The notes beneath the pieces were generated by a model that saw nothing but the letters and a program-made list of their open reading frames with translations, was not told where the DNA came from and ran no database searches. A DNA stretch of 64,000 bases, taken from contig NC_049983.1 in NCBI RefSeq assembly GCF_000003815.2, positions 24,330,068 through 24,394,067 on the forward strand, in the 5' to 3' direction. Of the stretch, positions 8,401-64,000 are shown in pieces. The position numbers and the translations under genes were made by a program. How positions within the stretch are numbered: the stretch's first letter is position 1; each line of letters starts with the position of its first letter. Source of the DNA: Branchiostoma floridae. Lineage: Eukaryota; Chordata; Leptocardii; Amphioxiformes; Branchiostomatidae.

Positions 8401-11400
8401 CAGGACTCTTTTGATACTGGATCTGCTGTCCAGGTGGCCTGGGTGGGTGGGAACACAACAGGATTTAGAACAGATCATGCCTGAGCCATTTCAGTTTGTA
8501 AAACTTAAGACACATGTCTAAGACTCAGTGGCTGAAGAAAGCAAGTGTCACTGAGTATTCATGTTTGACGCCATGTACCTTTATCACTATGAAAATGAAA
8601 AAAAGACATCATTCTGCTACATACAAAGTAACACATATAAAGAGAAGTAATGAATTTTCATTTTCAGATAATGTAAACTTAATCCGACACATGACAAGAA
8701 CAGATACAAAGTTCAGCATATAGAAAGGTACCAAACAAAATTTTCAAAATACTCTTGAAGTAAAGAATAGGCTACCACATCATGCTTTACATGACAACAA
8801 TTAGCATGGAAGGTACATGTACAATAGTGACATCAAGGCTGTAGGATTATTCCTTACCAAACATGAGACCGAACACCACCACACTCATCTCTGTTCTACT
8901 ACTTACCAAACATGAGACCGAACACCACCACACTCATCTCTGTTCTACTACTTACCAAACATGAGACCGAACACCACCACACTCATCTCTGTTCTACTAC
9001 TTACCAAACACGAGGCCGAACACCACCACACTCATCTCTGTTCTACTACTTACCAAACATGAGACAGAACACCACCACACTCATCTCTGTTCTACTACTT
9101 ACCAAACATGAGACCGAACACCACCACACTCATCTCTGTTCTACTACTTACCAAACATGAGGCCGAACACCACCACACTCATCTCTGTTCTACTACTTAC
9201 CAAACATGAGGCCGAACACCACCACACTCATCTCTGTTCTACTACTTACCAAACATGAGGCCGAACACCACCACACTCATCTCTGTTCTACTACTTACCA
9301 AACATGAGACCGAACACCACCACACTCATCTCTGTTCTACTACTTACCAAACATGAGGCCGAACACCACCACACTCATCTCTGTTCTACTTACCAAACAT
9401 GAGACCGAACACCACCACACTCATCTCTGTTCCACTTACCAAACATGAGACCGAACACCACCACACTCATCTCTGTTCTACTACTTAACGTTACCAAACA
9501 TGAGACCGAACACCACCACACTCATCTCTGTTCTACTACTTACCAAACATGAGGCCGAAAACCACCACACTCATCTCTGTTCTACTACTTACCAAACATG
9601 AGCCCGAACACCACCACACTCATCTCTGTTCTACTACTTAACGTTACCAAACATGAGACCGAACACCACCACACTCATCTCTGTTCTACTACTTACCAAA
9701 CATGAGGCCGAAAACCACCACACTCATCTCTGTTCCCAGCAGGAAAAATCTCAAAACAATCCACAGGATCTGCGGTGGACAGACAGGGAAGTGTTACACT
9801 TATTTCTGACAAAAAAGGGGTTACAGTGCAGTCAATCTGGTATCCAGCCGTATTATAGCTCCCGAGAGGAGAGATTGAAGAATATCAGGATCTATAATAC
9901 AGCTGGATACCAGGCTAGGGCCCAAGACCATCACTATACATCCAGAGATTGTAAACATATTCCACTGAGTACGCGAATGCTTACACAAAATGACCCTGCT
10001 GATCCACAGTGACTAGCTAGGAGCAGGTGAACAGAATACAATGAAAATGAAACGTAGGAAAACATGACTGTCAGACAGGATAGTTCATTACTAGTATTGA
10101 TCCTAAAGCAGACCACAGTGGTCATCGAATATTGGATCGGACGTTAAATGGAAGTCCCGTGTTTGGGGAGAGCAACACCCCAAGCACGTTAAAGAACCCG
10201 CCACATGTGCGAACAACCACCCGAGCGGATCAAACCATTCCGGCCAAAAATAGGGGTAGGGAATCCGGCCAAAAATAGGGGTAGGGAATCTCCCGAGCAG
10301 CCCTCGTAACCCCTGCTTCGCCTATTGGGTCAGTTAGTCCTCACTCATAGTGAGCAATTGAGCTTGTCTCAATCATGATGTTTCTGACCTAGGGTGAAGA
10401 GTTGCTGTTACAGTTCCAATCATGTAACCCGTAACCTTGAGTGGCCTTCAGGCCTTGTTACGTGGTGGCCATTGAGTAAAAAAAAAATATACCTTTGTAA
10501 TGGACAAAAGTTGTGCATTGTACCAGGATGGTTCACATTTGAAACTGAACTCTAATAACTATATAATTTTGCACAACCTTGTCAGTAAGGATCCCTAGTG
10601 TTGCAGTAGCGTTGACTGTCATGGACACCACACAGCGGCACACGCTGATCACTGCCACTATCACAACCTGCAGGGAGGGAAAAAGGTTAGGGTATCATCC
10701 ACACATCCTAATCAAAGAACGCACCACCGATTTTGCGGCAAGCCCGATACCAAAGTGTCCCGACTGAAAAATAAAATAGAAAACCACAATAAAGTATTCA
10801 CCCCCTCTCTGCCAATCTTGAATATATTTTGAACTTGATGAATTGGGATTTATGGTATTTTCTTCCTTCTCAGGGTATCTGTACTTAAATCAAAATTATC
10901 CAGGGAAAATAGAACAAGTATGCTCTACTGAGAAACATGTAGTTTCACTGTGCATGCAAAATTAATTCTCTGTTCGCGTGCCGCTGCATGACTTGCATTG
11001 ATCAGAAAAAGGACATTGGACAAAACTTAACTGTCTAAAATTGTTCCAATAATTTGTAATTAATCAATAATTTCATTCTTATCCAAAAGACTCTAAATTT
11101 TTTTGTTTACAGTATACTGACCAAGATATAGAAGGCCCTAAAGATGGGGCTGTTGGTGTTCTTCAGCTTGACCTTGGCCTTGGGAAATCTGACCATGAGG
11201 AAGAGCAGGAACAGAAGGTTGGGTACCAGGAGGACAACATCCCACACTCGGACCCTGTAGAATAAACAAACAAATAAACATCATGAGGTTGGGTATCAGA
11301 AGGACCATGTCCCACACTAGGACCCTGCAGAAAATGGCAGGCGATAACACATGGGGAACAACTGTTAGTACCGGTACAGAAAACTCATGTACTGGTCAAG

Positions 11401-13312
11401 TTCCCGTCCAGCAGATCAGGTCCAGGTGGGCACTTGACAGTGCTCCTTTTCTAACTGGACCAAAATCCGATTTGTTTATTCTTAAGGTCAACATTTTTTA
11501 CCTTTGTTACAGAACAACACAAATAATCCTATGCTGGTTGAAACCCGAATGACAGCACGGGGATCCAAATTGCAGCCCCCTATGCTCAGTTGCACTGTTA
11601 AAACCCTAGCTACTATTAATGAGGAAAATAATGATCTATAATATTGCGGTTTGACTTATTTCTGAATCACGGACAGTATATCATCCCTGGGGAGAGGGAG
11701 AATTGTCCAAAGGAATAGGGCTTGAAATACCACATGCATATGCAGGTTAGTGCAGGTAAAATTGGAGCTGTGCAGGTATTTCTGTGGTCTACCTGCACCT
11801 AACCTGCTCTGGTCCATATACTAAGGTTTTATACATAAATGTCATATGATGTAGTATAGGTGTATGTGAATTGCTATTAGCTGCATTGGCTGTTGCCACC
11901 TATTAGGTATAAAAGAAAACATAGCAATGGTTCCTCAACAATTTTAGTATGATCCATACTTCCTAAATTCAGAGTGATGCAGTAAATTTCAATGTTACCT
12001 GCACCAGAGCAGAAAAAGTATTTCTAACCCTGCATAAAACCTGAGAAGGCAGTACCAGAGCCTTACCCAGAGTTGTTGATCTCCATTATGAGAGGTGCGA
12101 AGCATTTGGCTGGTTCCACCGGGATGGATGTTGTGTTGGTGTTGTTACTGATCACCTCCGTTGGGGATACCGCTACTGTAGTGTTGTGGTACACTGGTAA
12201 TGCATGAGAGAGAGTAAAAAGGTATCATTATTTTTCTTCTTTCAGATCACATGTGGTCCTTTGTGCATTTTGCCTACGGGCATGACTATGCAATAAAAAT
12301 TATTATCATTATACGAGCTATGTTGGTGAAGATTAGACATCCAGGTAAACAATAATTCTAAGAGAAATCAACCTGGATAAGACATGGACATGACTTCTCA
12401 CTGCTTTGATAATGAGAATTGGTTTGTTTTGCAGTTCATTCTAGTGATGCTGAAGTAGAGTGATAGTGGTCAATTGAAATGTCCAGATGTAATCTACAAA
12501 TCTTATCCAGCGGTAGAGATCAAAAGTTGTTCGTCTTAATAAATGGCCAAGTTTGAAGAGAAGTACATGTAATTCCTAAGGTTAAAACCATAATAAGACA
12601 TACAGTCTGTACTGTGGTCTATTTTGAGACAAAAATCTATTCTGTGATAAAATTGTAGCAATACAAGGTAATGTTGGTGAAGATTACTCAGCAAGGAATT
12701 GAAGAATATACCACTAGCATAGATTGAAGTCAACTTTGTTTTATAAGACAAGGCAATGTACTATAACAACTGGTTCTCCCCAGAATTTTTTAGTATAGTG
12801 GAGGGGCTGGCAAAAATAACCCGCACCAACGCGCTGCGCTTTCATGAAAATGGGTTCATTTTGCAATGACAGAGGGTGTCAAATACTACAAGTATAATAT
12901 ATTGTTGTGATTCCTTTGTTGTAAAGTGGCAAAACGACTATTGTTTTGATCATTGCTCATTCACAAGTTTTTGCAGACAATGCTGACTGGAAAAGTGATG
13001 CCACTTGGCACAAAAATCTGTGAATTGTCATTAATTTTAGCAAAACTAACAAAGAAAATAGGGAAGAAACACACTAAATTTGAAAAATAGTATAGTGGAG
13101 CTGGCTGAGAGTATAGTGGAGCTGGAGGGCCTTCCTTATTCCACCCTCTGGGGAGAACCCTGCACTAGCATAGATTGAAGTCAACTTTGTTTTATAAGAC
13201 AAGGCAATGTACTATAACAACTGGTACACGTACATTAGCCCTGCTCATAACTTAAGAATCCAGGCTCACCTGGTACAGAGGGCACTGTGGCTGGAATGAG
13301 CACCATCGCCAT
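5485..13312 (-). CDS. TPRA1: TPRA1 (transmembrane protein adipocyte-associated 1, GPR175-like), complete, 11 coding exons
   Basis: Exons in gene order: 13312-13270, 12193-12067, 11254-11122, 10667-10578, 9769-9697, 8438-8359, 7677-7561, 6963-6903, 6461-6359, 6024-5944, 5716-5485. All junctions are GT/AG, and the phases join to 1140 nt (379 residues plus TGA), close to the 373 residues I recall for human TPRA1. The protein is a seven-pass membrane protein of the GPR175 family. The N-terminal exons carry several N-x-T/S sites ([16 protein letters not shown]). The first membrane segment is in [14 protein letters not shown]. Family motifs include [48 protein letters not shown], and a cytoplasmic tail with [18 protein letters not shown] ending LERWQYISS. 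The start codon follows AAAG and gives MAMVLIPA. A 5' UTR acceptor lies at 13350-13351, so this exon begins at 13349 and a noncoding first exon lies further upstream. Function in animals is poorly defined; homologues are linked to metabolic signalling. Exon 5 borders an 18-copy duplication of its own donor. Confidence 0.93.
8856..9743. repeat. 49-bp minisatellite, 18 copies, each holding the 3' end of TPRA1 exon 5 and its splice donor
   Basis: Units begin at 8856, 8905, 8954, 9003, 9052, 9101, 9150, 9199, 9248, 9297, 9346, 9392, 9438, 9493, 9542, 9591, 9646 and 9695. Most are 49 bp; two are 46 bp and two are 55 bp. On the minus strand each unit encodes [12 protein letters not shown] followed by a GTAAG donor. 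The unit at 9695 is joined to the intact exon 5 (9769-9697); the others lie downstream in the intron. If a distal donor were used, the reading frame would pass through the first donor as F-G-K-stop, so only the exon-proximal donor preserves the protein. Confidence 0.93.
10130..10490 (+). mobile_element. Dispersed retroelement remnant (GGACGTTAAATGG family)
   Basis: Begins ATTGGATCGGACGTTAAATG and ends CCTTGAGTGGC...GGCCTTGTTACG then an A-rich tail, which resembles the 3' end at about 19080-19158. Related blocks occur at 4105-4180 and, inverted, at 28031-28092. It contains a 28-bp CCGGCCAAAAATAGGGGTAG duplication. Confidence 0.6.
11716..12032. mobile_element. Possible hAT-like MITE in TPRA1 intron 2
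   Basis: AGGGCTTGAAATAC at the left and GTATTTCTAACCCTG at the right are roughly inverted; TGCAGGT repeats lie inside. The inverted match is short and imperfect. Confidence 0.4.
12712..13225. mobile_element. Inserted element flanked by a 63-bp direct duplication, TPRA1 intron 1
   Basis: A 63-bp sequence starting CACTAGCATAGATTGAAGTC is identical at 12712-12774 and 13163-13225. Between them is about 388 bp whose ends are inverted (TTCTCCCCAGA / TCTGGGGAGAACCCTG), resembling a CAGGG-type hAT MITE. The left terminal CAGG appears lost. Confidence 0.85.
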
Positions 13313-15787: not shown

Positions 15788-33087
<17,300 letters not shown>

Positions 33088-38379: not shown

Positions 38380-38380
38380 T

Positions 38381-38422: not shown

Positions 38423-41400
38423 GTGTGTGTGTGTGTGAAAATGAGAGAGAGATAGATGGAGAAAGATAGATAGATAGTGTGATAGAGAGAGGGGTCGGTA
38501 CAGCGTTAATTCAAGTTTTGGGAGTAGGGAGTACTAGTAGATTATAAGCTTTTTTCTACATTGTATTTTAGCAACAAAAATGAACTTCCATGCTATATTC
38601 ACTTGGCTTGTGGCTGTAAAAGTCTCTGTACCTTTGGTAGGACAGCCGTCTGTGCCTGTCACGACTCGGGTAACAGATGGTCATGTTGTGGTTCCGGCCG
38701 AACCTGGCCAGCACCAGAAACGTGGAGCCAGAACCGGTCTTATGCACCTGGATAGGGACAAAATGTCAACAATCAGTTATCACCTTTACATTACTCTTCA
38801 AGCAGAGGTTAGGCTCCGGATGTTTTTTAAATCGTTTTTTAGTCGGTTTTACTGGGCTTTCTATTTCGTATTGTATCTTACATTGTTAGGTTTTCGCAAT
38901 ACAAGATATCATACGAAATAGAAAGCCCGATAAAAACGACTAAAAAACGTTAAAAAAACAGCCGGGGCCTAACCTCTGCTTGGAGAGTACTTAACTGTTC
39001 AAATGGTGCGTGGGATTTGCGAAGGTGAAAGTAAAGCAAACCCATTTTTTGGGTAGCAAAAAATGTTCTTGAGAATGAAGCATATAGACACACACTTCTG
39101 TCAGACTTACCTGGGGCATGATCATTTAAATGCTGTTTTTAACGAATTTGCTCAGTGTAATGCCATTGACAACTTGGCACTGATAATGAACTGTAAGTGC
39201 TCCTGCTTCCATAACACATGAAGTTAGTTCCTTTAGAAAAAATATGATTTACCAATAGTAAAGCCACAGTAATAGATACGGTAAAATCTGTACTGGCTCG
39301 TGTACATCGAATGAAGCATTAAACAGCTAGGGTTCCCAAACCTATAACACTTACTCTCGGCATCAATAGCTGTCTACCACTCAAAAATCATAGCCGCAGC
39401 ATGTCCAGAACCCAAGACATCAAACCAGGAAGTTCCGCTGCAGTACCGTAACAGGCCGCAAGGTAGCCGAAAGTCTAATCGTTTTCAGGTCTCAACAAGA
39501 CCTGCCCACATGCCGAATATCAATACAATCCACCCAGGTGTTCTCGAGGTATGCTGGTATTATACAGACATACAAACATACAAACGCTTAACAAAACATA
39601 ACCTTCTTGGCGATGGTAATTACCTAGCATTCATCATTGTTCGTTAATCAAGCCTTTCGGATAGTCCTTGACCGTATAATTCTACATGTCCTGATCAGTC
39701 TTCGTGAAAGGTCTTCGTGTTTAATGATCCAAAAATTGTTTGTCAACCTTGAGTGACCCAGAATTTGGTTCGCATGAACGCACACGCATGTACACAAATG
39801 TGCACACCTGGCCGCGTGGAAAAGTTCAAAGATCCAGAATTTGTTTGTCAACCTTTAAGAATACAACCTGCCGTACGTGCAACTGCGTAGTGTCTACGTG
39901 CCAAAACGTGGGCAATCTTTTGGGATGTAAGCACGTACAACTTTAAGTTGTAAGCACGTACAACTCAATTACCACTTGCGCAACGAATGATGCACGCAAC
40001 CGGCTCACGGCCGGGTGTGGCTTGCAGACCACATACGGGTCACACCTGCGTATATATCTATGTCCGCATGAGGCGCGCATGGGAGTATTTGCCTCCACCA
40101 GGCTCCACAGGTCGTTGTAAAAATGATAGAAATTGGACAAACGTAAACGGGTAACATGTCAGACGAGATAGCTGTGTCGCTAACCATACTTCTCGGTCAG
40201 CTAACTCATCTGGCAGGTTATGTATCTATATTCGTACAATTTGTACTATTTTTCTCGCGTCCTGTGGAGCCTGGTAGAGACTAATAGCTTCATACGCAAC
40301 TCAAACGGACTTGAATATGTACGCATGTGTGACCCCACCTTTACGTATTACATCTTGCGTAACCGTACGAGTGATGTGTGTTGAGGCCTGCTACCTCCCT
40401 GCTTTTTTTTCAGAAAAAACGTGAAGGATGTGACGTCCCACAAAAACGTACGGACACATTAAAGAGCAAGTACGGTGGGTTGTGCCCCAGGCTTTAGTAA
40501 CCCATAATTCGGTACGCTTGAACGCACACACATGCACACACGTGTGCACCGTCCTAGCCGCGAGGAAAAGTTGTTTGTGTCAACCATTTATATGGGTCAT
40601 AGATCATAGACTGCTATGGCACATAGCTGGTTCCATTTTAGGCCTGGACCCCCGTTTTACGTCTCTTCCGAAAGTTGAAAACAATCCCTAATACCCCCTT
40701 TCCACTAGGGTGGCCCGCTCACCGCGCTCTGTCTGCGACCTAAAATTTGACATATCGCTCAACTAATTGTATATAGATAAACGTATCTTTTTACACTTTG
40801 TGTGTTTTGTTGTCCTTTCGGTCACGCTTTGAATTTTACAGTTTGTATGATATGTTCAGCGTTGGAGTGAATATACACATATCCTATTTAGGCCTATTTA
40901 GGTCGCAGTGAGAGCGCAGCGCGATCGCTGTCAAGTGGAAAGGGGGCCTTACAACATGTCCGAGTCCAGCCGACCCTGGCATGGACCTCAAGCCCACATA
41001 TCCAAGTATAACGTCTTGTATTTGCTGGACTTACGAAAGGCTTTTCTCTGTGTTTTGAACTTAAAGCAGTCGTGTTTACGTACTCTAGTGTGTGACCTTT
41101 ACCTTGATGAAGACGAAGTTGGTGACCGGACGATCGCAGCTGGCCTGGCTCGGGCGGCGCCCTGTAGTCACTGTAACCTTGCCCTCACCCCAACTGTTAA
41201 GAACCAACAACCTTAAGTGCGTCAAAGTTTAACCTTACATCATTCAATACCAGTACTGTAGTATTCAATATCGGCACGATGTAGCGGTCTCCAAGCAGAC
41301 ATTTGGAGGGAAAGTCGACGGGAAGACTTCCTGCCTGTTGGTCTGAAATGTTGGGTGGTTCCGTAGAAAATTTAGTACCTGTTAGCTCAGTGACCTTACC

Positions 41401-44307
41401 TGTTATCACCATGAGAATCACCATACGGTTGCTCCTCTGTAAACCTCGCGTTCTCCCAACTCCACAGCATGCCGACATACAACGCTCCAACCAGGCAGCT
41501 CAGGTATAGTGCCATGGACTTTAACTGCGCCATTTTGTGTTCATGTTTGACTGTCTAATGACAGGCGCGGCAAAAACAACCGAATGAGTCATGCTGGGTC
41601 TTAAACATAATTTGCCAAACCGGAAAAACTGCTCACACAAAGACCGTCTCAATGGTTAAGGCCGATAAAATCAAGGCGTAATAATGAGCCCACAGCTTTT
41701 CTAGTCACGAAGGCAAAAACACTGATTATAGGGAAGAACGATCTACAAGGGGTATGGGAGATCTACAACATGTAAATAGGGAAGTGGATTCAAAATAACA
41801 AACACGCACGCACACAATGGGCACACATGTGCGCGCGCGCGCACACATACATACAAGCTCGCAAACACGCGCGCACACACGCACGAACGCACACACACAT
41901 TCACGCACGCACGCACGCACATACACAGTGGAACAATCTTATATCTACATACAGACACACAGACACACACGCACCAACAGACACTATCTTGTAGCAAAAC
42001 AAAGTATTTGGTTATATAGTTGATTAATAGGAAAGTTTGACTATCTGCATTATAAACTTACTTTCATCTGGTACATTACCAAGGAAACTGTTTTTTCTTA
42101 AAATCGTTTTGTTTGCTATCTATATCCATTGATATAGAATAAATTTTCTTATTCAAAGTAAAGCATATTCTTTTAAACAAAGTAAAATATATTCTGTAAA
42201 GGATGAAGGGAAAGTATAATTTTGATACAAAACTATTTTGAACCAAATTTTGTTTTATTTGATACGATATGTATTAGATAATGAATTTTCTTATACAAAA
42301 AAATGCATATTTTTGACATGCGCTAAATATGTTTTCTGATACGAAGTAAAGCATGTTCTCCGATACAATTTGTGTTTTCTTTGATACAAAGTAAAAGATA
42401 TGTTCTCTTGTACAAAGCATAATAAACTCTGCAGTATAAATTGTATTCTTTAAGGCAAAGTAAATGCTGTATTCTCTGATACAAAGGAAACGAAACAATG
42501 TTATATATACTCCCAATGACAAAGTTTATCTTCTTGTTTACTATTAATTTGCCATTGCTACCTGTGCATTTCTGAGATGCATGGAACATGTACATATTTG
42601 CACTTTTGTGATTATCTTGCGCTAATGTGTAATTTGGGCTTGCTTTCTTCTGATCTCTTCGTTTTGTCTTTCGACTTGGAGCAACAGCGCCGAACCCCAC
42701 GCAGAAGTGTCCCAGTTCAATTCTTCACAGAAGGTCGAATCGACTACAAATTCCTGATTCCACTTGCTGCTAGGAAAGACTCTTTTCCTTTCGAAGACCT
42801 CACAGTGGTGGTTTACTTCCAGGTTCAGAGTCTTGAAATACGCCACCTCGTCCCAGAAGTCGGGCCCTTCCTTCGCGGCGCGTTCCCAAAATGTGCGATT
42901 GAAGTGTTCGTACATTAGATAATCCATGGGACTTATTTTCTTGTGAGTTTCTTTCTGTTCGTCTGTGAGTGGGACTGACTTTAGGGGATTGTCTAAACTG
43001 TGGATTCTTTCCGTGGTGTGCAGTATGTCGTACATGGCCCAGCAAAACGTCCTTCTCAGCAGCACCAGGGATTCCTCCCAGTACTCTGTGATGAGAACAA
43101 TGGAGTACCAGCCTCCAACGGTCCTGTACAAAATAACGACAACGCATTTGGATATGGTAAAGATACCCATACAGGTTTAGGATGGTTCTATTCGTATGGA
43201 CCTAAACGGTATGGATGCGTATATCAGAAATTCTACACGCACACACACGCACATAAACACAAAGCATTTGGATATGGTAAAGGAACCCATACAGCTTTAG
43301 GATGGTTCTATTTGTATGGACCTAGACGGTATGGATGTGTACATCAGAAATTCTACATGCACACACACGCACATAAACACAAACACATTTACAAACTTAT
43401 AAGTACACACACACATTCATGCATACACACAAATCCACTCACGCAAGCGGGCATAAAATTATAATATATGTGAAACAGATAGAAGCGTCTACCGAAAGAC
43501 ACTCAGAAAAGTCAAAAGCAGAAGTGTTGAGCATCTAAAACTCTGCACAAGAACAGTCCGTTTTTTCAGTATAAAACTCTTTCCTACCTGAGAGTTTCTT
43601 CTATCTGACTTCTATTTCTGCTCTCAAACAGCTTTCTTGGAAAGCCCAAGGTGTAAGCTTGGAAGTTCCCCTGGTGAGAAAAGGGCTTCTTCTTAAGGTC
43701 TCTCTTTCGCGGTTTGTAGTTCACGTTTCTATCCAGGTACTTCCCTAGCGGGTTTCCTTTATTGACGTTCTGCCGCTGGTAGAAGTACATGGACCTGAAG
43801 TGTTCCAGCGGGTGCCGCACGATGCCGATGTACCTGGTTCCGGGTGCCATGAGGCGGTCCATGGCGGTCTTGTTCATGATGGCGTGGTTGATAATGAGGG
43901 TGTAGTTTCTCAGTGCAGGTGTACACGCAGATCTGTCCAGACTTGGGCTGGAAAGTGTGACGAGATCTGCGTTATCTACAGGACTTAACCGAAACATTTA
44001 AACATGGCAAAAACGAAGGTATACGAATTATTTGTACACACACACAGGTACACACATCGCCATTAGCACATAAACACATATGACGAGAGAGAGAGAGAGA
44101 GAAATAGATAGATGGATAGAACAGATGGATAAAAAATAGATAGATAAATGGATAGAATGATTGATTGATTGATAGATATATGGATATATAAATACATAAA
44201 TGGATACTAGTAGATAGATAGATAGATAGATGGATGGATGGATAGATTAATGAATGGATAGATAGACAGGTAAAATAGATTTTTAGACAAATAGGTATAG
44301 AATATGC

Positions 44308-44338
<31 letters not shown>

Positions 44339-47300
44339 CTTGCGGTACGACAGTCGCATGTGCGCATTGTGACTCGGGTAACAGATGGTCATGTTGTAAT
44401 TCCGACCGAACCGGGCCAGCACCAGAAACGTCGAGCCAGAACCGGTCTTATGCACCTGGATGGAGACATTCAATTGTAGCCAGTGCGTAATCAGTTACCT
44501 CCTATTTAATATTTATTATAATGATCAGACAAAATGTAACATAGGCAAAGATTACAGGATTTGATTCTCTACAAATCTCTTAACATGCAAATGTCATATG
44601 GGAGAGTTGCAGTTGTCAAGATGAAGCTATTGCAGTTATTATACTCGTCTAACAAAATGATATCGTAGCAAGTTATTGTTATGATATTGTAGCGTCCCTA
44701 ACGCACCGTCGTACACATAGTTTCACTTGTTTGGGCACGCTTTTTGATGTTATTTTGACACGAAAATTGTAAAGTTGTATGAAAGGACATATGGGTATTG
44801 TTACAAAGGTCTTATTCAGTCCTACCGAAACGACGTTTTGTTCCAAATATCGTAGACGTATTTAGAAAAGATCTATGTTTATTTTATTTCATTTAAGGAA
44901 CCTTTTTGAATACGAACTTTTGACACAGAAATGATGCCATATAAACAGCTACCTTGATGAAGACGAAGTTGGTGACCGGACGACCACAGCTGGTCCGACT
45001 TGTTGTGCCGTTCGGGGATTCACCGCTGCCCAATGTAGGGCGGTGCCGTGTAGTCACTGTGACCTTGCCCTCACCTGACCTGTCAAATACCATCAACAAT
45101 CGTTGGCGTAACCTTTAAATATGAAACACTAGCACTCCTCTAACCCATGCCGTCATCCATGCAGAGTTTGTATTTTTGTTCTAAGCAGCATCGAAAAAGA
45201 TCAATGTGATGAGGATTATGATTTGTATTATTTGTATGAGCCACACATCATCTGCAATGGTGTCAATATTAAGAGTCCTTTTGAATCCGGTTTAAAAAAA
45301 AAACAGTTGTATCGATCGATCAGGTCTCAGGTGTTAACATCCATTATAAATACACGATGCATGCATTCTGTACTCTAACTGCTTGCAGAGCACCATGTAT
45401 GTTTACGTTTGCAGCTGTGTTGTTGCTGCCTATCGCGACTTGAAGGTCCATACTTACAGGTCGCTACCCTTAAGGCCTTTCACCATTAACGCATTAGTTG
45501 GCGACTTAAGCACATACATTTACTTACTAATAGACAAACCTAAACGCAGCGAACTCACGGGCCACTGAACTGTCCAAATGCAACAGTTACTAATTTATTA
45601 TTCTAGGGTATAAACTGGCCAGCTCCAAGCCGGAAGTTAGGAGGAGAAACTCGGGACGTCTTCCTGGCGGTTAGGTCTATAATGTGTGTAAGTAGCAAAG
45701 GTCAGTGACCTCACCTTTTGGTGCCATCAGAATCACCGAGTGGTCTCTTCAGGGCAAATCCCGCGTTTTCCCAATTCCATAGCATGGCCACATATAACGT
45801 TATAGCCAGGCTGATCAGGTAGAGTACCTTTAACCTTAACGAAGCCATTTTGTACACATTTTGCTGTCTAATGAGCGGAACAAAATCAGGGAGGGGGATC
45901 CCGCTGCAGCTGGGTCTGATCAATACGTGCTTTGCAAAACCGGAAAAACTACTTAGTAAACACAAAGACCTTCTGAATGGTCCGCGGGCCGACTAGATTA
46001 AACTTTAAGTTCTCGGTCCCATGTTCTTTGATAATGATGTGTTCCTTTTGCCATTTTTTTGTTGTTGAAAATTTGGTGAAACATGAGAAATTTACAGTAG
46101 GGTGAATCAGAGGCAATGAAGAACTAAAAGCCGCCACCCACCACCCCACCCTACCCCCAATCACACAAACAAACATATGTTCTTGCCATTGGAACTCCCA
46201 CATGACCGCTCAACTTCAAACCTCGTGCCTTCCCAGCTCTTCCATGCCCACATACAGATCAGGCTTCAGTCAGGCAGCTCAGATATGGCGCCGTATACAT
46301 AGTCCTCAGGGTGGCCAACGTAGGTGTGATAGCCTGTAGCCTATTATCTACTTAACGCGCGTGATCACGCGGAAACACGTGTCTGATTAGGCCCCCTTTC
46401 CACTAGACGGCGATCGCGATGCGTTCTCACTACGACCTGAATAGGATATGTGTAACCTTTTTTTCATACTGGGTATATAATGCAAAGCACGTATTGATCA
46501 GACCCAGCTGCAGCGGGATCCCCCTCCCTGATTTTGTTCCGCTCATTAGACAGCAAAATGTGTACATGGCTGTGTGATGCGTCTAGTGTGTAGGCGTAGC
46601 GGTAGTGTGCTTGCCACTTCTCGCTTTCAGCCCTCACCGCTGGCTAGCGGAGCTGCATGCAGCACTGCGAAAAGAGAGCCGAGTGCGTAAGTCTCTCCTG
46701 CCAGTACATAGCCTCTCCACAGCAAGTCCCCATTGCAGTGCCTCCTCGTGGCTACAGACGGAAACTGGGCACCGTAAGGCCCCAGGCTAAACTGCAGGGA
46801 GCTCGGAGGAGGTCTGGCCCCCAGACGCACGGCATGCATGGCCCACCGGCGTGTGGACACGCCCTGATGCCTGCGAACCAGACCCCCAGCTATGGGCAAA
46901 TAGCACGGGTAGACGGAGCTCGTCAGCCTTGGATGGCAGTTCGTCTAGGGGAAGGAAAACCCTGATTCAAAAACCTCCGCTGCCTTGCGGCTATACCCAG
47001 TCCTGGGAAAGGCTACGGGAGTTAACCCAGAGAGAAAATCCGGAGTGGAGTACGTGAGGCGGTTGGCTGTCAAACTCTGTCATCCTTCCGGCAACTCCTG
47101 CAGCCAAACCAACGCCAAGTGTCACGCCTCGCGTTCCCTTGGACCACGTCGGTGAGGTCGAGAGGGGGGTCCTGTTGTGTTTTTGGGCAGCGCAGGTCCT
47201 CCATAAACCTGCCCAGGCTAGCGCTCTGGAGAGGCCACTCCAGTCGCCCCCATCACTGGGGGTGAGAAACAAACCGGGAGACAGCAGTTTACGGGTTATA

Positions 47301-50300
47301 AGTCCTTGCTAAATTGACGTAAAGCGGGACGCCACGGGTTGCCTTCGACAGTGGGTAGGATCTTCGTAATCCTATTGGTCAGTCACCGCCCGCTTTAAGC
47401 CGGGCAGCCCCCGGCCAGTTGGGTACTGACCCGTCACGATCTGCCTGCTTCATCGGGTGCTTGGAGCTTAGAGTCTTACTCGACAAGTGGATCGTATGTC
47501 GCGCACCAGACAAACAAGAAAGTAAGGAAAAGAGAAGACAAAAGACCCAACCCATTCGCATCGGTAGTTGGAATGTTCGTACCATGCGTACCGGCCTGTC
47601 AGATGACTTAACGGTCATAGAGGATATCCGTAAGACTGCAGCGATTGATCGCGAGCTCTACAGACTGAACATAGATATAGTTGCCTTGCAAGAAACACGT
47701 CTCCCTGACAGTGGATCCCTTAAGGAGGACTCCTACACCTTCTTCTGGCAAGGGAAAGGTATGGAAGAAACTAGGGAACACGGAGTCGGCTTTGCCGTCA
47801 GGAATACCTTGCTGCACATGATAGAACCACCCACAGGGGGCACAGAAAGGATCATTACCCTACGTCTCTCCACGCACGAGGGTCCTGTCAACCTTCTATG
47901 TGTTTATGCTCCAACGTTACAGGCTACTTCTGAAGTCAAGGACCAGTTCTATGGGCAACTTGACAGTGCCATTAAGAAAATCCCAGTATCAGAGCACATT
48001 TTCATCCTAGGTGACTTTAATGCTAGGGTGGGCACGGACCAAGAGTCATGGCAGACTGTGCTAGGACATCATGGGATTGGAAAAATGAACGAAAATGGAC
48101 AAAGACTCCTTGAGCTATGCTGCTATCACAATCTCTGTGTAACAAATACCTTCTTCCAGAATAAAGCTATTCACAAAGCATCCTGGCGACACCCCAGGTC
48201 GCAACGCTGGCACCAGCTGGACCTTGTCATTACACGACGTACTTCCCTAAACAGTGTGTGCAATACAAGAGCATACCACAGCGCAGACTGTGATACTGAC
48301 CACTCTCTTATTGCCGCAAGGATAAAGCTAAGACCTAAAAAATTGCACCACATGAAGAAGAAAGGCCAGCCTAAAATTGACGTCAGTAAGACTATGCTAC
48401 CTGACAGAAACCAGAAATTTCTAGAATGCCTTGAAGGAACTTTGAACAACATCCAACCACAGGATGCAGAGCACAGGTGGGAAACACTGAGCAAAACCAT
48501 TTACAGTGCAGCAGCCCAGTCGTATGGAAAGAAGGAGCGAAAGAATACAGACTGGTTTGAAGCATACATATCAGAGTTGGAACCTGTCATGGATACAAAA
48601 CGCAAAGCCCTGGTTTCCTACAAGCAAAATCCCAGCAGTCAAAACTTACAAGCATTAAAAGCTGCCCGACAGGAAGCCCAGCGGGCCTCACGTCGTTGTG
48701 CAAACAACTACTGGCTCCTGTTGTCAGAGCGCATCCAGCTTGCTTCAGCAACTGGAGACATCAGGAGGATGTACGAGGGCATCAAACAAGCCACGGGCAA
48801 ACCAATTAAAAAGAGTGCACCCCTCAAAGCAAAGTCAGGAGAGATCATCACTGACAAAGACAAACAAATGGCACGTTGGGTAGAACATTACCTGGACATT
48901 TACTCAACAGAAAACTCAGTCTCACAAGATGCACTTGACAATATTGAAGACTTCTCTGTCCTCGCAGAGCTGGACGCTGACCCTACCATTGAGGAGTTGA
49001 GTAAAGCCATTGATTCCATGTCAAATGGGAAAGCGCCTGGTGAAGACAATATCCCAGCTGAGATCATAAAGAGTGGGAAATCTGTCTTGCTGGAACCACT
49101 ACATGAGCTACTACGTCTATGCTGGAAAGAGGGCAAAGTACCTCAGTCAATGCGAAACTCCAAGATAGTCACTCTGTATAAGAATAAGGGAGACCGTACG
49201 GATTGCAACAGCTATAGAGGCATCTCTCTGCTAAGCATTGTGGGAAAAGTCTTTGCCAAAGTGGTCCTTACCAGGCTCCAGGTTCTGGCAGACCGGGTCT
49301 ACCCGGAATCCCAGTGCGGCTTCCGAGCCGAGAGGTCCACAACTGACATGATATTCTCCGTACGTCAGCTTCAGGAGAAGTGCCGCGAACAGCAGAGGCC
49401 ACTATACATCGCCTTTATCGACTTGACGAAGGCGTTCGACCTTGTTAGCAGAAGAGGTTTATTCCAACTGCTGAGGAAGATTGGTTGTCCCCCACAGCTG
49501 CTAGACATCATCATCTCCTTCCATGAGGACATGAAGGGTGTGGTCAGTTTCGACGGGGAAACCTCTGAGCCCTTTGCAATTCGGTCAGGTGTGAAACAAG
49601 GGTGTGTGCTGGCCCCGACCCTGTTCGGGATTTTCTTTTCTCTGCTGTTGAAGTCTGCCTTCGGTCACTCAACTCAAGGTGTCCACCTACACACCCGCAG
49701 TGATGGGAAGCTGTTCAACCTGGCCCGACTGAGAGCCAAGACAAAGGTCCGCTCAGTACTGATCAGGGACATGTTGTTTGCCGACGATGCAGCACTGGTC
49801 GCACATGTTGAAGATGAGCTGCAACAGTTGCTCAACCAGTTTGCCCATGCGTGCAGTGAATTTGCGCTGACCATCAGCATAAAGAAAACAGTAGTCATGG
49901 GCCAGGATGTTCCACAGCCACCCGTCGTCACCATAGGCTCGGAAGTGCTTGAAGTGACAGATCACTTCACGTATCTTGGATCGACGGTTACTAGCAACCT
50001 GTCTTTAGACAAGGAAATTGACAGACGGATAGCTAGGGCGGCAGGCGTGATGACCAANNNNNNNNNNNNNNNNNNNNNNNNNNNNNNNNNNNNNNNNNNN
50101 NNNNNNNNNNNNNNNNNNNNNNNNNNNNNNNNNNNNNNNNNNNNNNNNNNNNNNNNNTCAGTACGCTTCTGTATGGTAGCGAGACCTGGACTACATATGC
50201 CAAACAGGAAAACGCCCTGGAAAGCTTCCATCTTCGTTGCTTAAGGCGCATTCTTGGGATTTCTTGGAGGGACAGAGTACCCAACACCACTGTTCTGGAA

Positions 50301-53300
50301 CGCTCCTGCTCCCTGAGCATCCATCTTCTCCTCTGTCAGCGACGTCTACGCTGGCTGGGACACGTATCCCGAATGAAAGATGGACGCATCCCGAAGGACA
50401 TCCTGTTTGGTGAACTAGCGACAGGAAAACGGCCAGTAGGACGACCGGCACTGCGCTTTAGAGATGTCTGTAAGCGTGATCTGAAGCTAACTGACATTGA
50501 CCCAGCTAGCTGGGAACAGATTGCAGCAGACCGCAACAGATGGCGTCACACGGTCAAGGATGGTCTTGCAAAGGGCCAGGAAAGACGTACAGAGCATCTT
50601 GAGTCAAGGAGACGCAAACGTAAAGAGAAACCGCAACAGGGGTACCCCTCTGCCTTCATATGTCCAAACTGTGGCCGCGACTGCCATGCCAGGATCGGTC
50701 TACAGAGCCACAGTAGACGCTGTCAACCACCGTGACCTGATACAGAGCGCTACCATCATCTGGAAAGATGGAAGGATGCCTACTATATAATACAGCATAT
50801 AAAAGTGTGACTGAGAGGACATCAAAACACACAAAGTGTAAAAGAAATTCATTTCTTTTCTATACAGTTTTTGAGCTATATGTCAAATTTTAGTTCGCAG
50901 AGAGAGCGTGGCGAGAGCGCCGTCCTAGTGGAAAGAGGGTATTAACTCGCGCGATCATGTGGAAACACCTGTTGCCTAATAAGATGACCCAGAATAACCT
51001 TATACATACAAACCACGATAATTCGGCTCGTGTCGTCTGTCATGTTGTATGATGGATAGGAATTTCAAACATTCAATGTAAAATCTGAACTTTTCTTTGA
51101 ATAACAGTGACAGGTAGTCTGTCAAAGACGAAGGGGGAAAATTATAAGTTATTGGACGTAATTAATCTTTGTTCTCAGAACTTGCTCATTGACTACCGAG
51201 TTAGATATAACAGTTAACAGATCGACACGATTTATTCTTTTAGTCTTTGCACAGCAACCAAAGATTTTATTCTCTTTTATCAACTACGAGTGACAATGAT
51301 AACATAACAATATTGACCAAGTACTAATGCATGTCTGTGCGAGCTTTTCTTTGTATGTATTTGTTTATCAGTGAGTAATTTTTCTACCTTTTAGCCAGCC
51401 TGCGACAAGGCAAAGAACTTCTTCATACCCCCCTCACATTAGGCGAAAATCGATCGGACGACGAGTCTGCGAGCTCTAGATTACGAGGAGGCATGACCCT
51501 GACGGGAAGGGGGGGGGGGGGACACTGTCATTTCTTCGTCGGCAGCAGGGTCATGCCTACTCGTAATTTCGAGCTGGCAGACTCGTCGTCCGATCGATTT
51601 TCGCCTAATGTGAGGGGGTATCAGCCAACCAACGTCTGTTTGGTGACCCCTGAATTAAGAATGTCAATAAACGGTTCTAGTGAGGTTCGCACTGCAGGCA
51701 GTGTCTTCGGACATTTTGCCAGCTATGGATAGCCTTACATACATACATGCATGCATACATACATGCATCATACAGAAAGTGGGGCAGTTCATTAACCACT
51801 GCCCTCGAAGAAAAAGCCAAACCCAATAATAGTATTCATTGTATCATTGATGATTAGACACTAGTTTTATGTACCACCCTGATTACTTCTCTTATTCCTT
51901 GTGCAATTAGCCTTCGGGCATGATTTTGCAAATAAACATAACATTATAAACCTTTTTATTTTAATTATTCCTAATCCTGTTCCCCTTTCCACACCCCAGT
52001 CAGCCGGAGACTGGGCGAAGAACTTCCTGAGTCAGGAGAAAGTTGCCGAGTTCTTCCAGCGCGGCTACGTCAGCAACATCCGGGTCCTTACGGAGGAGCA
52101 GTGCGACAGGATCCTGAAGGATTATGAATACTTCATTGTGAGTTTATTAATCTTTTATCATCTCATGTTTTTGTACGTGAGCCTACGACAAAGGAAGTGG
52201 AAACTAGGATGCAGTCCTAAGGTAAGAAGTAACAGGTAGCAGTGATTTATGTCACACGAAATGTCCGAAGTAAATTTCCATTTTATCTAGTTGTAGAGAG
52301 TGGATTGGATTTAAATGTTTGATACTCTAAATTTTAGACGAACTCCATCGACCTTGTTCGCAGAATGAATAACCCTTCTATTTCCAACAGTGACGTCAGG
52401 AACAAACCACTTTTGCATAAGTATCATAAAATCCATGTCGCCCCCCGTCTCCGCTGAGGTGGGCTCTGATGCACACTGCCTCCTTCACGCCTTGCGCAAA
52501 GAAATCGAGTTCTGAGTCTAGGATATTGACTTTGTGAAATGTGTGTCCGTTTGGCCTACAGGACCCCTCTAAACAGCACCCCGGGCACGCCATGCTGTAC
52601 GAACACCATAGTAACCAGAGTGGGGACAGCAACAACGTGCTGATGCACGGGCTCGGGCAGTAGCGGCTCTTTAATCTGTCTGTAGCATCAAATCCCTTCA
52701 AATCTGTATGTCCGTTTGCCCACAGGACCCGTCTAAACAGCACCCCGGGCACGCCATGCTGTACGAACACCACAGCAACCAGAGTGGGGACAGCAACAAC
52801 GTGCTGATGCACGGGCTCGGGCAGTGGCGACTCACACGGCTGTTCCACGACCTGGTCTTCCTGCCTGCAATTAGCGTAATTTACTGTTTGATTTTTTTCT
52901 GCCCCTGATAAGGAGGTCACGCTTCTTCTTATAGTTGGATGAAGGAGTAGTCTGGGTGCTTATAATTACTTGCTTACTTACTTACTTACACAACCAGTTA
53001 ATCAGGGTGGTTAATCTCACCTTAGCTGACGTTTCGATGCCTGTTAGACAGACATATTCCTCAGAGCTTCTAACTGGAGTTCTGTTTGATCGCAACGTTT
53101 TCAAAATATGAAATAGTTCATAAATCCATTTATCTTGAATATTATTCCTTTGAGAATCAAAACTATGAAAAAGTTTATATTTCTACAAGTTTGCAATACT
53201 ATACACGTTAATTCAATTTACGCGTTACGATATTATGAGTGAGTGAGTGAGTGATATTGTACATCTATCCCACGCACCTGGTGTTGCAGGTTCCGTCCTC

Positions 53301-57614: not shown

Positions 57615-58700
57615 ATTAAAGACCACCAGAGGGACTCTCCCTACCCAAGGAAGATCGCTACTGTCCCACGCAAAACTCAGCCTGCTCGATTCAGTCTGTT
57701 CAAGCAGGTTGGTCTGTTGTGGATTGCTATTCTTTTGGATTAAGTGCAAAAGCAAAGCTGCGAAATGTATGAAGTATACGCCAGGCAAGGGTTGCGAATA
57801 CATTTACCTTATCAAGTTAAATACACTGGTGTAATATATAATGCCTAGATTACTGAGCAGAAAATGTGCAATATGTAATACATACATACATGTAATGAGA
57901 AGTATAAAAAATGTGAGGAACGTTGCTAAGTCAACGAAAGCAAACCGTTAAACTAAGAGACACCATGAACGTTGATATAAAAAAATCTGTATTCTTAGAA
58001 GAAAATGAAATTTTACAAACAATTGGTTTGAAAGTAACAGATTCAATGTTTTATCGTAGAAAGTTTATTGCAAGTTCTTGCCAGAGGGCTAATTGCAAGT
58101 GACAAAAAGTGACAGACAAACAATGGTAAACAGTATACAGTAGTAAACTAATAAATCTAATGATAAATTCAAATAAACTACACAAATGAAAACAAACAAA
58201 CTTAACTATTGGGTTTGACTTCTTTTTCGGAGACAGTAAAAGACGAATGATACCACCTTCTCGATAATAAGTGGGTTTTGTGATGTTAAGAGGAGGGTAG
58301 TTTTCCTTTTGTCTGTAAACGTGGGGAGATAAGGATGGGCTTTGGGGACCTCTTTAAAAAAGCTCCTTTCTGTCTTTCTTGATCATAGAAAGGACAGTTC
58401 TAATGATGTCCGTAGCCGTATGTTTCGATTCAATTAGATTGCAATAATAGTACCCTGTACGACCTTGAGATACTCTCGGCAGGATCTCACGTTTCGTTTT
58501 CGTTATTCAAAGCCCCTGACACACATTCGGGACCTTCCCACGACTATACCGACCAAGGTTCACAATGGTTTGGGGTAGCATAGAATCATTCAAATGTAAC
58601 TTCAGTCAGCTCATATGATCACTATGATAAGTTTAGGCCTATAGTACTAGTATTCAGCCTATTCAGCTTCCAAACACTGCTGAAGGCCTAGTGTCCCAAC

Positions 58701-59150
58701 CATGGTCTGGAGAAGACAGGCAGGCTCACGCTGGATATGCGTGACTGGAGCTGACAAACAAGACAGTTTCTTTTACCACCAACGTTGACAGCCATGTCAC
58801 CCTTAACCCATTAAACGTGCCTTAGAACCGTTTTATCACCATGTCCACATCAGCTATTGACTTCTGTAAAACCTTTTGTTGACCTGCAGTTTTGGATCTG
58901 CATTGCACGCAGACCAACTCCCACTAGTCCTAACCATGGTCTGGAGAAGGCAGGGAGGCCCACATTGGCTATGTGTGACTTGAGCTGACAAACAAGACAG
59001 CTTATGTTACCGCCAACGTTGACAGTCACGTCACCCTTAACCCATTAGACGTGCCTCAGAACCGTTTTATCACCACGTATACATTAGCTATTGACTTCTG
59101 TAAAACTATTGTTGACCTGCAGATTTGGGACTGCATTGCGCTAGCCTGTC
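58701..59150. repeat. 234-bp direct tandem duplication
   Basis: Copies start at 58701 and 58935 with CATGGTCTGGAGAAGRCAGG and run through CAACGTTGACAG, CACCCTTAACCCATTA and TATTGACTTCTGTAAAAC to TTGACCTGCAG. They are about 85-90% alike. No coding function is seen. Confidence 0.85.
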
Positions 59151-60806: not shown

Positions 60807-63760
60807 TTACATTTTCAGCAAATAGATGGTCCAGTACAGGACAACACAAAACATAAAGGTGCTTGGAAAAATAAGCCTCGAGTATCTGTCTATGTTATCT
60901 ACGTCCTGTATGTCATGTAAGGAAACTCTCTGGATTCTGGCCACCTTTTCTCTGATCTTCGCCATCCTACGAGCCTTGGTCTCCTCCGATATCCCGCTGG
61001 AGCTTCCTTCCTCCTTCGTGCTCCAGGACTGCCGCTCTGGCTCGGGGCTGGGCATCTGCAGCTCCTGGAGAAGGCAGAAAAGCTAGCACGTGGTAAAACT
61101 GGCATGCAGGTTTGCGTTGTAGCGGGGGCATCGCGTGCTATATGGACGAGTATACCAAATGTACAAACTGTGCCCGGTAAAATATAAAGAAAGATATGGA
61201 CACAGAATGAAAAATAGATGGGTGTCAGCCACGACAGATATATGTTGAACATCGGCAAGGAAAAAACAATACTTTTATAACAACGGTTTACTACAGGAAG
61301 AGATCCGTTAGTGTGTTAAACAGCACAGTTATGTGAATATATAATACTTAAATGCAATATGAATTATGTTAGCCGAAGGCTGTATGCTTATTCACGATTG
61401 TGCATTTTCATTTTATTTCATTTCATTTTCATTACTATAACACATAATAACGTATCTCATGTGCATTTGGTAATGTGATCACCAAACCACATGTGATCGT
61501 CGAGTGTTCAATTGAACAGTATATAAACATATGAATATGGCATGCCATCATGCCATCATGCTACATGAAGTGGAGTACTATGTGCTATACCGATTGTCCA
61601 ATTCAAACACATGCATTTTGAGCGCAAAGACAATCAACAAGAGACGACGATTGCAATTGCAAGCGCATTTAGAGCAGTTATACCCGTTAGTACCACACGG
61701 TTAGTTAATGCCGGCAAATCAGGTGTAAAAACACAAAAGAAGCGAACTTGATTTGCGTAAGCGGAAGCCTGTTTGGTAAGCCAGGTGGATCTTGCCAGAA
61801 GTTCAACACTGACAGGCAACTTTCCGTCGGGATGAACTTGGAAAATTTGATCAACGAACGCGGCTCGTTGAGCTATCTCCCTTTCCCGCTGATTCTGTGG
61901 AGAGGAAAGTTGAACTTGACATCACATTACGTTCCAAATATGGAGTGGTGCCCAGGAGCGAGCATATCCAGCTGACCCGGTGACACCAAACACCATTGAC
62001 GAAGAACATCACTTGTTAGTACAGCCTGTATAGAGTTGTGAAGAAAATTGCCAGAAGCAGCACAAACTAGTCAGGACAACTGAGTGTAGAGTCACAAACT
62101 AAGACACCACAAGACAGTGTAGCCCATGCCAGACACAGTTCCAGTTTATAGTCTTATAAAGCTATAATAGACAATATGTAAAAGCAAACATACAATGGCT
62201 TGAATTGACATGCAGACTACAGTCATAAAACATGAAGAAGCGTGGGAATTTATAGAACATTCAATACCTGGCATGATAGGTGTGTCCTGATTAATTGCCC
62301 AAAATGATGCCCAGAAAGCCATCAGGAACTTGATCGGGCAAAAGAGTAATTGCACCAACGAAACTAATATGTATTATCATAGACAGAACACAAATTAGAT
62401 GATACCTGAATTTCCTTCTCTCGTTTCGCTGCTTTGCGTTTCCTTCGCGTGGACTCGAAGCTGACGACGGCGTACTCTCCCAGCGCGGCGAAGACGAAGA
62501 AGAAGCACATCAGGAGATAGACGTCCACGGCCTTGATGTACGAGATCTTCGGCAGGGAGGCGCGTGCTGACGTCACAAAGGTGGTCTGAGCAAGAACCGT
62601 GGTGATACCTGTAACAGCAACAGGAAATATGAAACTGTAGCAGATGCAACAAATAAAGTTTATGGCTACAATTTACAAAAACCCATTGCCTATTATTATA
62701 CGGGATTCATATTTTGGGCCATATAGAGTTTAAGGTATTGTAAAGAGTTGGCAAAGGGAATTGAAAAATGAAGATAGAATATATAGTTGCAAATTGTCTA
62801 ATCAAACTTTTGGGCACAAACTCATTAAGAATCTTGAACCTTTGTAGAAAAGCCTACAAAAATTATCTGAGCCAAAGGAGGCAATTAAGGTCTCAAAGTC
62901 TCAAATACACAAAGATTACTTTGGAATGAGAAAGCATTATTTTTACAATGCCCATTGACTAAGGACACTTATAGGGATCCAACGAAAGTTCAGACGAACT
63001 AACAAACTAACACACTGACCCAGTGAGACCCGGGCTGGCGGAGAGTCTTTGTTGATCCAGAAGCTGACCCATGAGATCATGACCAGCAGAGTGGAGGGGA
63101 CGTACATCTGCAGGAAGATGTAAGCTACTTCCCTCGTCAGGCGGAAACTGAAGGCCACGTGTGGGTACGCTCCTGGACGGACACACAGATTCACACGTGC
63201 GATTAGGATTCATACCAGTGAAAGCGGTAGGAAACACAAAAAGAATATCTGATTTCAAATCTTCTAACCTTATTCTACTTGGAAATGTGGTCGTGATGTG
63301 CAAGCCAGCATTCCTATGTTGAAGGGAAACATGTAGTTTGCACAATTTTATAGTCCCATTTTGTGTCCCAAGCTGTGTAAATGTAAAGCTGAACGTGCTT
63401 TTATGAAAATTCATATAATAAAGTTCTTTTTATGGAAATGCTTGGAGGCTGAAGGACATAGTAAAAGTGACAATTATTGCCCAAAACATTCCCTACATAA
63501 ATTTCTTGATGACATGTCGACAGTTGATTTACTGTTACTCATCTCAGAAGTTATCAAATGTGTCTTTTGAAGTACTGTGCATTCTATGATATCTTCACTG
63601 CCTGCTGCCATTGGCATTGTACCTGTCTCGTAGGTTGCTATCATTTCTTTTGTTTGGTGATTCTTCACGGTGAACTGTGCCACCTGGAGGTTCTGCAATC
63701 CTCGCACAGACTCGTCTCCCTTCAGCCACTTGTAAATCATGTCTTCAGTAGTGTAGCCAT
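60807..63760 (-). CDS. Cys-loop anion channel subunit (glycine receptor-like), 3' four exons only
   Basis: Exons in gene order: 63760-63623, 63172-63020, 62608-62406, 61064-60807; the 5' part lies beyond the window. Phases join and the frame ends at TAA 60807-60809. The first exon holds extracellular sequence [18 protein letters not shown]. The second holds M1 ([20 protein letters not shown], then VSFWINKD) and the Pro-Ala-Arg of anion-selective channels before M2. The third holds M2 ([16 protein letters not shown]), [19 protein letters not shown] (M3) and a basic loop. The last holds the rest of a short M3-M4 loop and M4 ([20 protein letters not shown]). ASLPKxSYxKAxD is closest in memory to vertebrate glycine receptors; GABA-A rho or an invertebrate GluCl-like subunit is possible. 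It would be a plasma-membrane pentameric chloride channel. Confidence 0.88.
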
Positions 63761-63923
63761 CTGAGATTTGTGCAATAAATATGTTTACGAAGAGCAAATT
63801 CAATATAATTTAGAAGAAATGAGATAAAAGTTCTTAGATTCAGTAACAGATGGACAATTACCATTGGCATCATGAATAAATGATGTCGAATAGCAGAACA
63901 CTCGTATTCAACTGAAATGAAGT

Positions 63924-64000
63924 AGTGTAGCCATCTGGGGTATGTGTAATAAATATGTTTACTAATAACAATTTCAATACAATATAGAAGAAACGTGGTA
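63924..64000 (-). pseudogene. Partial upstream copy of the channel exon acceptor (cut by window end)
   Basis: Plus-strand 63924-64000 repeats 63746-63822: GTAGTGTAGCCATCTG, then the intron block AATAAATATGTTTAC and TTTCAATA. In gene sense it is an acceptor (CCCCAG) plus ATGGCTACACTACTT, about 178 bp upstream of the real exon start at 63760. Confidence 0.85.

Follow-up and report, generated by a model that had tools for sequence, protein, structure and literature searches.

The window, that is, the whole 64-kb stretch of Branchiostoma floridae DNA analysed here, carries the MCM2 gene together with TPRA1, a PhyH gene, a sulfotransferase gene and a Cys-loop channel gene. Edges were located by self-alignment and TRF and then inspected base by base, and tandem partial copies are present at eight edges of MCM2 and in TPRA1, the PhyH gene and the channel gene. 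All of the edges at which the initial annotation had noticed partial copies do bear them, by self-alignment, TRF and base-level reading alike. The unit of repeat spans the exon-intron boundary in direct orientation, and the extra copies are referred to below as decoys. The arrays are as follows:

1378-1755: array without gene assignment
8853..9736, minus strand: TPRA1, donor-side array, 49-bp unit x 18
11216..11332, minus strand: partial copy on the acceptor side of a TPRA1 exon, with 47 bp matching at 70-bp spacing
19912..20260, plus strand: array on the acceptor side of MCM2 exon 5 (E5), with units of ~87-90 bp and 3 decoys; functional acceptor 20213
21881..22493, plus strand: array on the acceptor side of MCM2 E7, with units of 155-185 bp and 3 decoys; functional acceptor 22387
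23232..23298, plus strand: MCM2 E8, short repeats of 19-23 bp over the donor after 23248
25547..25862, plus strand: copy on the donor side of MCM2 E12, with a 159-bp unit; functional donor after 25627
25921..26886, plus strand: array on the acceptor side of MCM2 E13, with units of ~136-152 bp and 4 or 6 decoys, depending on the pick; functional acceptor 26839
29391..29909, plus strand: array on the donor side of MCM2 E16, with a 134-bp unit and 3 decoys; functional donor after 29498
31312..31609, plus strand: copy on the acceptor side of MCM2 E17, at 174-bp spacing; functional acceptor 31508
31640..31880, plus strand: copy on the donor side of MCM2 E17, with a 128-bp unit; functional donor after 31690
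32095..32498, plus strand: array on the acceptor side of MCM2 E18, with a 142-bp unit and 2 decoys; functional acceptor 32438
33200-33531: array downstream of the MCM2 stop, no edge
36459-36699: degenerate 24-bp repeat, no edge
43133..43383, minus strand: sulfotransferase gene, intron-only array that stops ~10 bp short of the acceptor, a counter-example
44094-44325: tetranucleotide tract, no edge
52540..52833, plus strand: partial copy on the acceptor side of an exon of the PhyH gene; functional acceptor 52726
58693-59139: array without gene assignment
63747..63993, minus strand: Cys-loop channel gene, acceptor-side copy, exon part only ~15 bp

Under a fixed rule the window holds 16 arrays, 10 of which span an exon edge while six are edge-less. 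Three features fall below the rule and outside the 16: the acceptor-side copy of TPRA1, the copy in the channel gene and the short repeats at MCM2 E8. The TPRA1 acceptor (11216-11332) and the MCM2 E8 donor (23232-23298) were absent from the initial list of edges.

Five acceptor and three donor edges are duplicated in MCM2, so that both boundary types are affected, and short repeats lie at a ninth edge, among 35 internal edges mapped. An 18-exon model built from the body-joined copies only gives 890 codons with no internal stop, and its affected junctions align gap-free with PDB mcm2 (8q6o_A). Since the duplicate copies are confined to the introns of this model, with no insertion at the affected junctions, the birth of a new intron through tandem duplication was rejected for MCM2. 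MCM2, which is conserved and bears eight duplicated edges, lends itself well to the study of edge copies.

In the TPRA1 donor array, the exon body joins the right-hand (gene-upstream) end, where the exon reads through 20 protein letters into gtaag; the TPRA1 exon at 11216..11332 matches Pfam PF10160. The duplicated exon of the PhyH gene (52540..52833) has no Pfam match, and the PhyH match lies on a different exon of the gene, just below the cut-off. Similarly, the PF02932 matches of the channel gene fall on its other exons.

Does this pattern have a name? The initial annotation knew of none, but in amphioxus a tandem repeat across an exon-intron boundary has been called a "mirage" (PMC3087553). 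There, mirages are described in Adh3 and globins, at both boundaries, with units of 10-72 and 150-160 bp. PMC3902484 mentions mirages in Adh and troponin C, and likens to them the 60- and 108-bp repeats of PGBD5. The edge copies of the window are very probably mirages: the DNA was duplicated locally and in tandem, with the exon-intron boundary inside the repeated unit. The phenomenon itself is already known from amphioxus, and MCM2 is dense in it. The earlier proposal of a local tandem duplication that affects many genes and leaves one complete exon is well supported. The rule of layout drawn alongside it (acceptor copies upstream, donor copies downstream, the joined copy functional) is empty, because tandem duplication across any edge, given an intact exon, forces such an order by mere geometry.

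In some arrays the first duplication may have arisen with little homology, and copy number would have changed afterwards. Copy numbers are near-whole in three of eight arrays (18.04, 14.00 and 6.03) and not clearly whole in the other five (4.34, 3.87, 1.79, 4.10 and 1.78). Splicing by exon definition would probably pass over the decoys, since they would have no partner splice site.

Do the decoys themselves matter? AG or GT is retained in all 69 alignable decoys from 17 arrays (70 were picked; one MCM4 decoy is gapped, and another decoy was seen that lies outside the picked set), and 0 of 34 dinucleotide columns vary, whereas AG/GT columns elsewhere vary in 23 of 168 cases (Fisher P 0.017). 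Both observations favour selection that keeps decoys because their splice sites act, in splicing regulation or in preparing new introns, and the globin paper proposes mirages as a route of intron gain (PMC3087553). Such selection is nevertheless improbable. The comparison against exonic AG/GT alone gives P 0.12, picking decoys by similarity misses decayed copies, and RT-PCR, as reported in the same paper, suggests that regular splicing is apparently undisturbed by mirages (PMC3087553). Most likely, the extra copies have no function.

Are exon edges preferred sites of duplication? Counts were compared with a null model in which the repeat unit is placed at random. A coverage test (array fraction of exon edges versus intron bases) was set aside because a long edge array fills the intron too, and the fractions cannot differ much. 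A nucleosome-length period was unsupported: the lengths of edge units extend over 45-174 bp, a range into which intron-only units also fall. Outside the window, genes chosen by family provided 18 arrays (12 from the first loci, three from globins, and those of L012, L057 and L058, the L036 array being that of L057 and counted once), while six of 14 loci in the first set, plus L056, had no array at all. Two arrays were dropped in advance of counting: one (L043 134-666) lies upstream of its gene, and the other (L012 1862-2733) has a period of 513 bp within a locus of 3 kb. L047 4399-4817, whose exon overlap is only ~6 bp, and 43133-43383 in the window, which ends ~10 bp before an acceptor, were scored as misses. 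Myosin, proteasome and kinase matches were excluded from counting, the last because most of them are long intronless frames. Exons were partly recognised via human MCM, CCT and TPRA1 sequences; for the L058 exon the coding look was the sole criterion, a Pfam search giving no domain, and its expected value was interpolated from neighbouring lengths. The MCM2 exon map stands in throughout for the MCM4, MCM6, MCM7-like, L057, globin and SNF2 arrays. In the first counts the CCT exon maps rested on Pfam hits that were incomplete, so that the expectation is underestimated and the excess overstated.

In MCM2, a gene picked for the pattern by the initial annotation, eight of eight arrays span an edge versus 2.0 expected (P 1.6e-5). 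Among the family-chosen genes outside the window the count is 8 of 16, two of the eight being globin mirages previously published, versus 2.7 expected (P 0.002), or 3.4 with the denser MCM2 map throughout (P 0.008). Counting the two dropped arrays as misses gives 8/18 (P 0.006, or 0.023 when every array takes the MCM2 map), and L058 as an additional miss gives 7/18 (P 0.024). With the MCM2 map for all, the count is 6/13 when globins are left out (P 0.029) and 5/12 when L058 is left out too (P 0.068). On these counts, tandem arrays in genes appear enriched at exon edges.

What lies behind the excess? Slower decay of exonic halves could be the source of much of it. When the odds are doubled to allow for this, the outside-window P rises to between 0.047 and 0.26; thus the edge-versus-background comparison put forward at the outset yields an excess in a small sample that becomes unclear once slower exonic decay is allowed. 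Within arrays such decay is not obvious, as decoy divergence is 0.072 in exonic and 0.071 in intronic parts (0.071 and 0.082 with corrected edges). It is possible, though less likely than not, that all of this is general background duplication in which exon landmarks are incidental and edges unpreferred. The values at doubled odds agree with this, as do the loci without arrays, the eight of 16 outside arrays and the sulfotransferase array that miss edges, and the arrays below 90% identity, which fit random placement (4/11 edge-spanning, P 0.11). The MCM2 count speaks against mere background, although the gene was picked, and so do the family-chosen set (P 0.002 to 0.023) and the arrays of at least 90% identity, of which four of five span an edge (P 0.002 to 0.003; 4/6 and P 0.008 when L043 is scored as missing an edge). 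The excess is strongest among these highest-identity arrays, in which unequal decay matters least, also at doubled odds (P 0.013; 0.024 with the MCM2 map for all). Together with the greater internal likeness of edge arrays (median identity 88.4 versus 78.9 for intron-only arrays, P 0.02), this argues for an edge-specific mutational process, for example through transcription, R-loops, nucleosomes or base-composition steps, that makes the duplications. Such a process is rather unlikely, however: the sample is small, the identity difference has P 0.08 with the two dropped arrays added and mixes two slightly different read-outs (shortest-offset match and best match), homogenisation instead of youth could give high identity, 43133-43383 and L047 4399-4817 are near-edge misses, and no motif or mechanism is shown. 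An edge-directed process is thus suggested, not shown. The likeliest cause of the excess is that arrays anchored at conserved edges persist longer, in addition to chance and possibly an edge mutational bias.

Assembly error is very improbable as the origin of the copies. Tandem repeats are hard to assemble, the window holds 200 N, the array of the globin locus L007 runs into N, and one mirage was aberrantly assembled in a draft, as PMC3087553 reports. However, the copies differ from each other and many genes are affected; in addition, the globin paper used trace data and RT-PCR (PMC3087553), and re-sequencing is cited in the PGBD5 paper (PMC3902484).

It is a doubtful idea that exon-intron boundaries in amphioxus are preferred sites of new tandem duplication via edge-directed mutation, with most recent genic arrays falling on splice sites and spare splice sites being supplied continually. 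If true, these sites would be a source from which introns and exons could arise. If the edge excess held genome-wide, amphioxus would be a natural system for the origin of spare splice sites, their disregard by splicing, and intron gain. No published count of mirages against background was found in the open-licence literature, as far as its texts were available.

The edge copies in the window resemble published mirages in being boundary-spanning direct repeats, on acceptor and donor sides, with AG or GT in many copies; they differ in the dense set held by a single gene, MCM2. In the 513-Mb genome, the globin array of L007 lies on the donor side with a period of 157, and that of L011 on the acceptor side with 4.2 copies of ~150-158 bp; in side and period they match the published BflGb9 and BflGb6 mirages, respectively. 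Tandem duplication with splice signals is shared with the Rogers model of intron gain through duplicated AG/GT proto-splice sites (as cited in PMC3087553), but no new intron is formed here and the extra copies remain within the old intron. Ordinary intronic minisatellites are the same type of array, and some intron-only arrays lie within the same gene families; by contrast, the unit described here carries exon sequence and a splice site.

Every exon edge that the initial annotation listed as duplicated, in four genes of the window (G000:C5:24330068-24394067, in a genome of 513 Mb in 431 contigs, taken to be that of Branchiostoma floridae from two globin arrays described below), carries direct tandem copies by self-alignment and TRF. 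A fixed rule gives 16 arrays in the window, 10 of them across an exon edge; each of the remaining six either stays clear of edges or sits outside any identified gene. The copies are distributed as follows:

PF10160 gene, which we take to be TPRA1: donor-side array, 49-bp x 18, and an acceptor-side copy absent from the original list.
MCM2, by base-level reading: acceptor-side copies at exons E5, E7, E13, E17 and E18; donor-side copies at E12, E16 and E17; short repeats at the E8 donor.
PhyH gene (Pfam match slightly under cut-off): one acceptor-side copy, on an exon with no Pfam match of its own.
Cys-loop channel gene (PF02932, matched in exons other than the copy-bearing one): one acceptor-side copy, with an exon part of only about 15 bp.
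Sulfotransferase (PF06990): a near miss, the array at window 43133-43383 stopping about 10 bp short of the acceptor.

Other features of the window are:

47359-50241, + strand: one 961-aa open frame with endonuclease (PF03372) and reverse transcriptase (PF00078) domains, LINE-like.
719-890, 2332-2473, 24162-24287, 38792-38989, 40037-40335 and 51429-51618: self-complementary elements of about 125-300 bp, MITE-like by look.
1378-1755: minisatellite, 31-bp x 12, outside identified genes.
45851-45936 and 46481-46566: perfect inverted repeat with 86-bp arms, separated by about 550 bp, close to the sulfotransferase genes.

Can a normal protein be made from such a gene? The MCM2 model lacks the first exon, which was not found, and joins 18 others, using in each case the copy contiguous with the body of the exon. 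It has 890 residues and no internal stop, and residues 11-888 align with PDB chain 8q6o_A, named mcm2, with no gaps at the affected junctions and small gaps elsewhere. Judged from this open frame and these gap-free junctions, the joined copies can make normal protein, and we infer that they are the ones used.

The order of the copies is as first described, with acceptor-side copies upstream, lacking a donor, and the joined copy last. Selection beyond that for an intact exon is unnecessary, as the rule is a consequence of geometry. If the duplicated segment consists of the end of an intron and the start of the next exon, the resulting order is intron-exon-intron-exon, followed by the remaining exon. 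A tandem duplication across an acceptor edge therefore leaves the extra copy upstream and without a donor, while the last copy joins the exon body; donor-side duplication would give the mirror image.

Elsewhere in the genome, loci were chosen by gene family and edge arrays were called by reading array sequences. We take loci to be CCT or MCM genes on the basis of Pfam hits and of human sequences. Edge arrays occur in two of nine CCT genes (L050 and L051; L047 and L048 counted as one gene), two of six MCM genes read at 10 kb, MCM2 not counted (L053, which is MCM6 and has two arrays; L055, MCM4), two of nine globin loci and the single SNF2-family locus read (L058, its exon judged by coding look). 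MCM6 has a 126-bp acceptor-side array and, about 500 bp further, a ~45-bp donor-side array (L053 2039-2585 and 3091-3442). Two MCM places were covered as 3-kb loci: L012 has one array, of 513-bp period, and L038 none. At the SNF2-family place G000:C14:1916791-1920600, SNF2-domain matches repeat one profile segment (about 17-50) several times; by this pattern of profile matches, the place looks like another exon-edge array.

Do arrays prefer edges? The expectation was the chance that a unit as long as the array's own, put down anywhere in the gene but not wholly exonic, crosses one edge and no more, by 8 bp or more; under this rule the CCT array L047 4399-4817, with an exon overlap of only about 6 bp, is a miss. 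All eight MCM2 arrays lie at edges against 2.0 expected (P 1.6e-5), a count that is not independent, the gene having been picked for the pattern. Outside the window, 8/16 are edge arrays against 2.7 expected (P 0.0018), an expectation too low because the CCT exon maps are incomplete. Applying the denser MCM2 map to all arrays raises the expectation to 3.4 (P 0.008). On that map, P is 0.023 when two dropped arrays count as misses (8/18), 0.029 without the globins (6/13), two of whose edge arrays were already published as mirages, and 0.068 without globins and L058 (5/12).

Conservation of one copy may slow decay of the exonic half of an array to about half the rate. When the odds are doubled to allow for this, P outside the window is 0.047 in the first count (2.7 expected) and 0.11 in a later recount, and on the MCM2 map 0.14 (16 arrays), 0.26 (18) and 0.23 (13); tripled odds in the first count give 0.18. 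The proposed comparison with background thus yields an excess in a small sample, but a weak one under doubled odds (P 0.047 to 0.26). Among arrays of at least 90% identity, four of five lie at edges (P 0.0016, or 0.0032 with the MCM2 map for all; doubled odds 0.013 or 0.024); counting L043 among the misses makes this 4/6 (P 0.008; doubled odds 0.053, MCM2 map for all). Older arrays show no edge excess (4/11, P 0.11). Edge arrays also have higher identity than intron-only arrays (median 88.4 vs 78.9, P 0.02; 0.08 with the two dropped arrays included). Decay alone would favour older arrays, whereas the excess is in high-identity ones; there is therefore either a preference of new duplications for edges or stronger homogenisation of edge arrays, in a small sample with largely borrowed exon maps.

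Decoys, the extra partial copies apart from the exon body, were picked by similarity (70 in 17 arrays, 69 alignable at the splice site), a procedure that missed at least one more copy in MCM4. AG or GT is kept in 69/69, with 0/34 varying columns (P 0.017 against other AG/GT columns of the same units; 0.12 against exonic ones only). Divergence from the functional copy is alike in exonic and intronic parts (161/2233 vs 135/1902; on recount 169/2368 and 174/2118), and selection on decoys is not claimed.

Three of eight arrays examined come close to a whole multiple of their unit (18.04, 14.00 and 6.03 copies); the other five have 4.34, 3.87, 1.79, 4.10 and 1.78 copies. With near-whole copy numbers, any homology used in the first duplication can hardly have been long. 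The likely first step would be duplication with little homology, after which copy number would probably change by exchange or slippage, exon definition meanwhile presumably keeping splicing on the site pair that flanks the complete exon.

The exon-edge duplications are real and striking, yet known and named, and the edge excess is a lead deserving a genome-wide count. Although the initial annotation knew of no named description, one source calls the pattern a mirage, a term derived from earlier Adh3 work, with further loci known; both boundaries can be affected, regular splicing is seemingly undisturbed and the mechanism is described as unclear (PMC3087553). In another, Adh and troponin C are named as mirage genes and PGBD5 repeats of 60 and 108 bp are likened to mirages (PMC3902484). 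No count of mirages at edges against background was found in the open-licence literature searched. Two globin mirages of Branchiostoma floridae have been described, one of 157 bp at the 3' boundary of exon 2 in BflGb9 and one of 150-160 bp in the 5' part of exon 2 in BflGb6 (PMC3087553). Of our globin loci, L007 has a 157-bp donor-side duplication and L011 an acceptor-side array with a ~150-158-bp unit in 4.2 copies; L007 matches BflGb9, and L011 BflGb6, in side and period, a likeness by description rather than by sequence.
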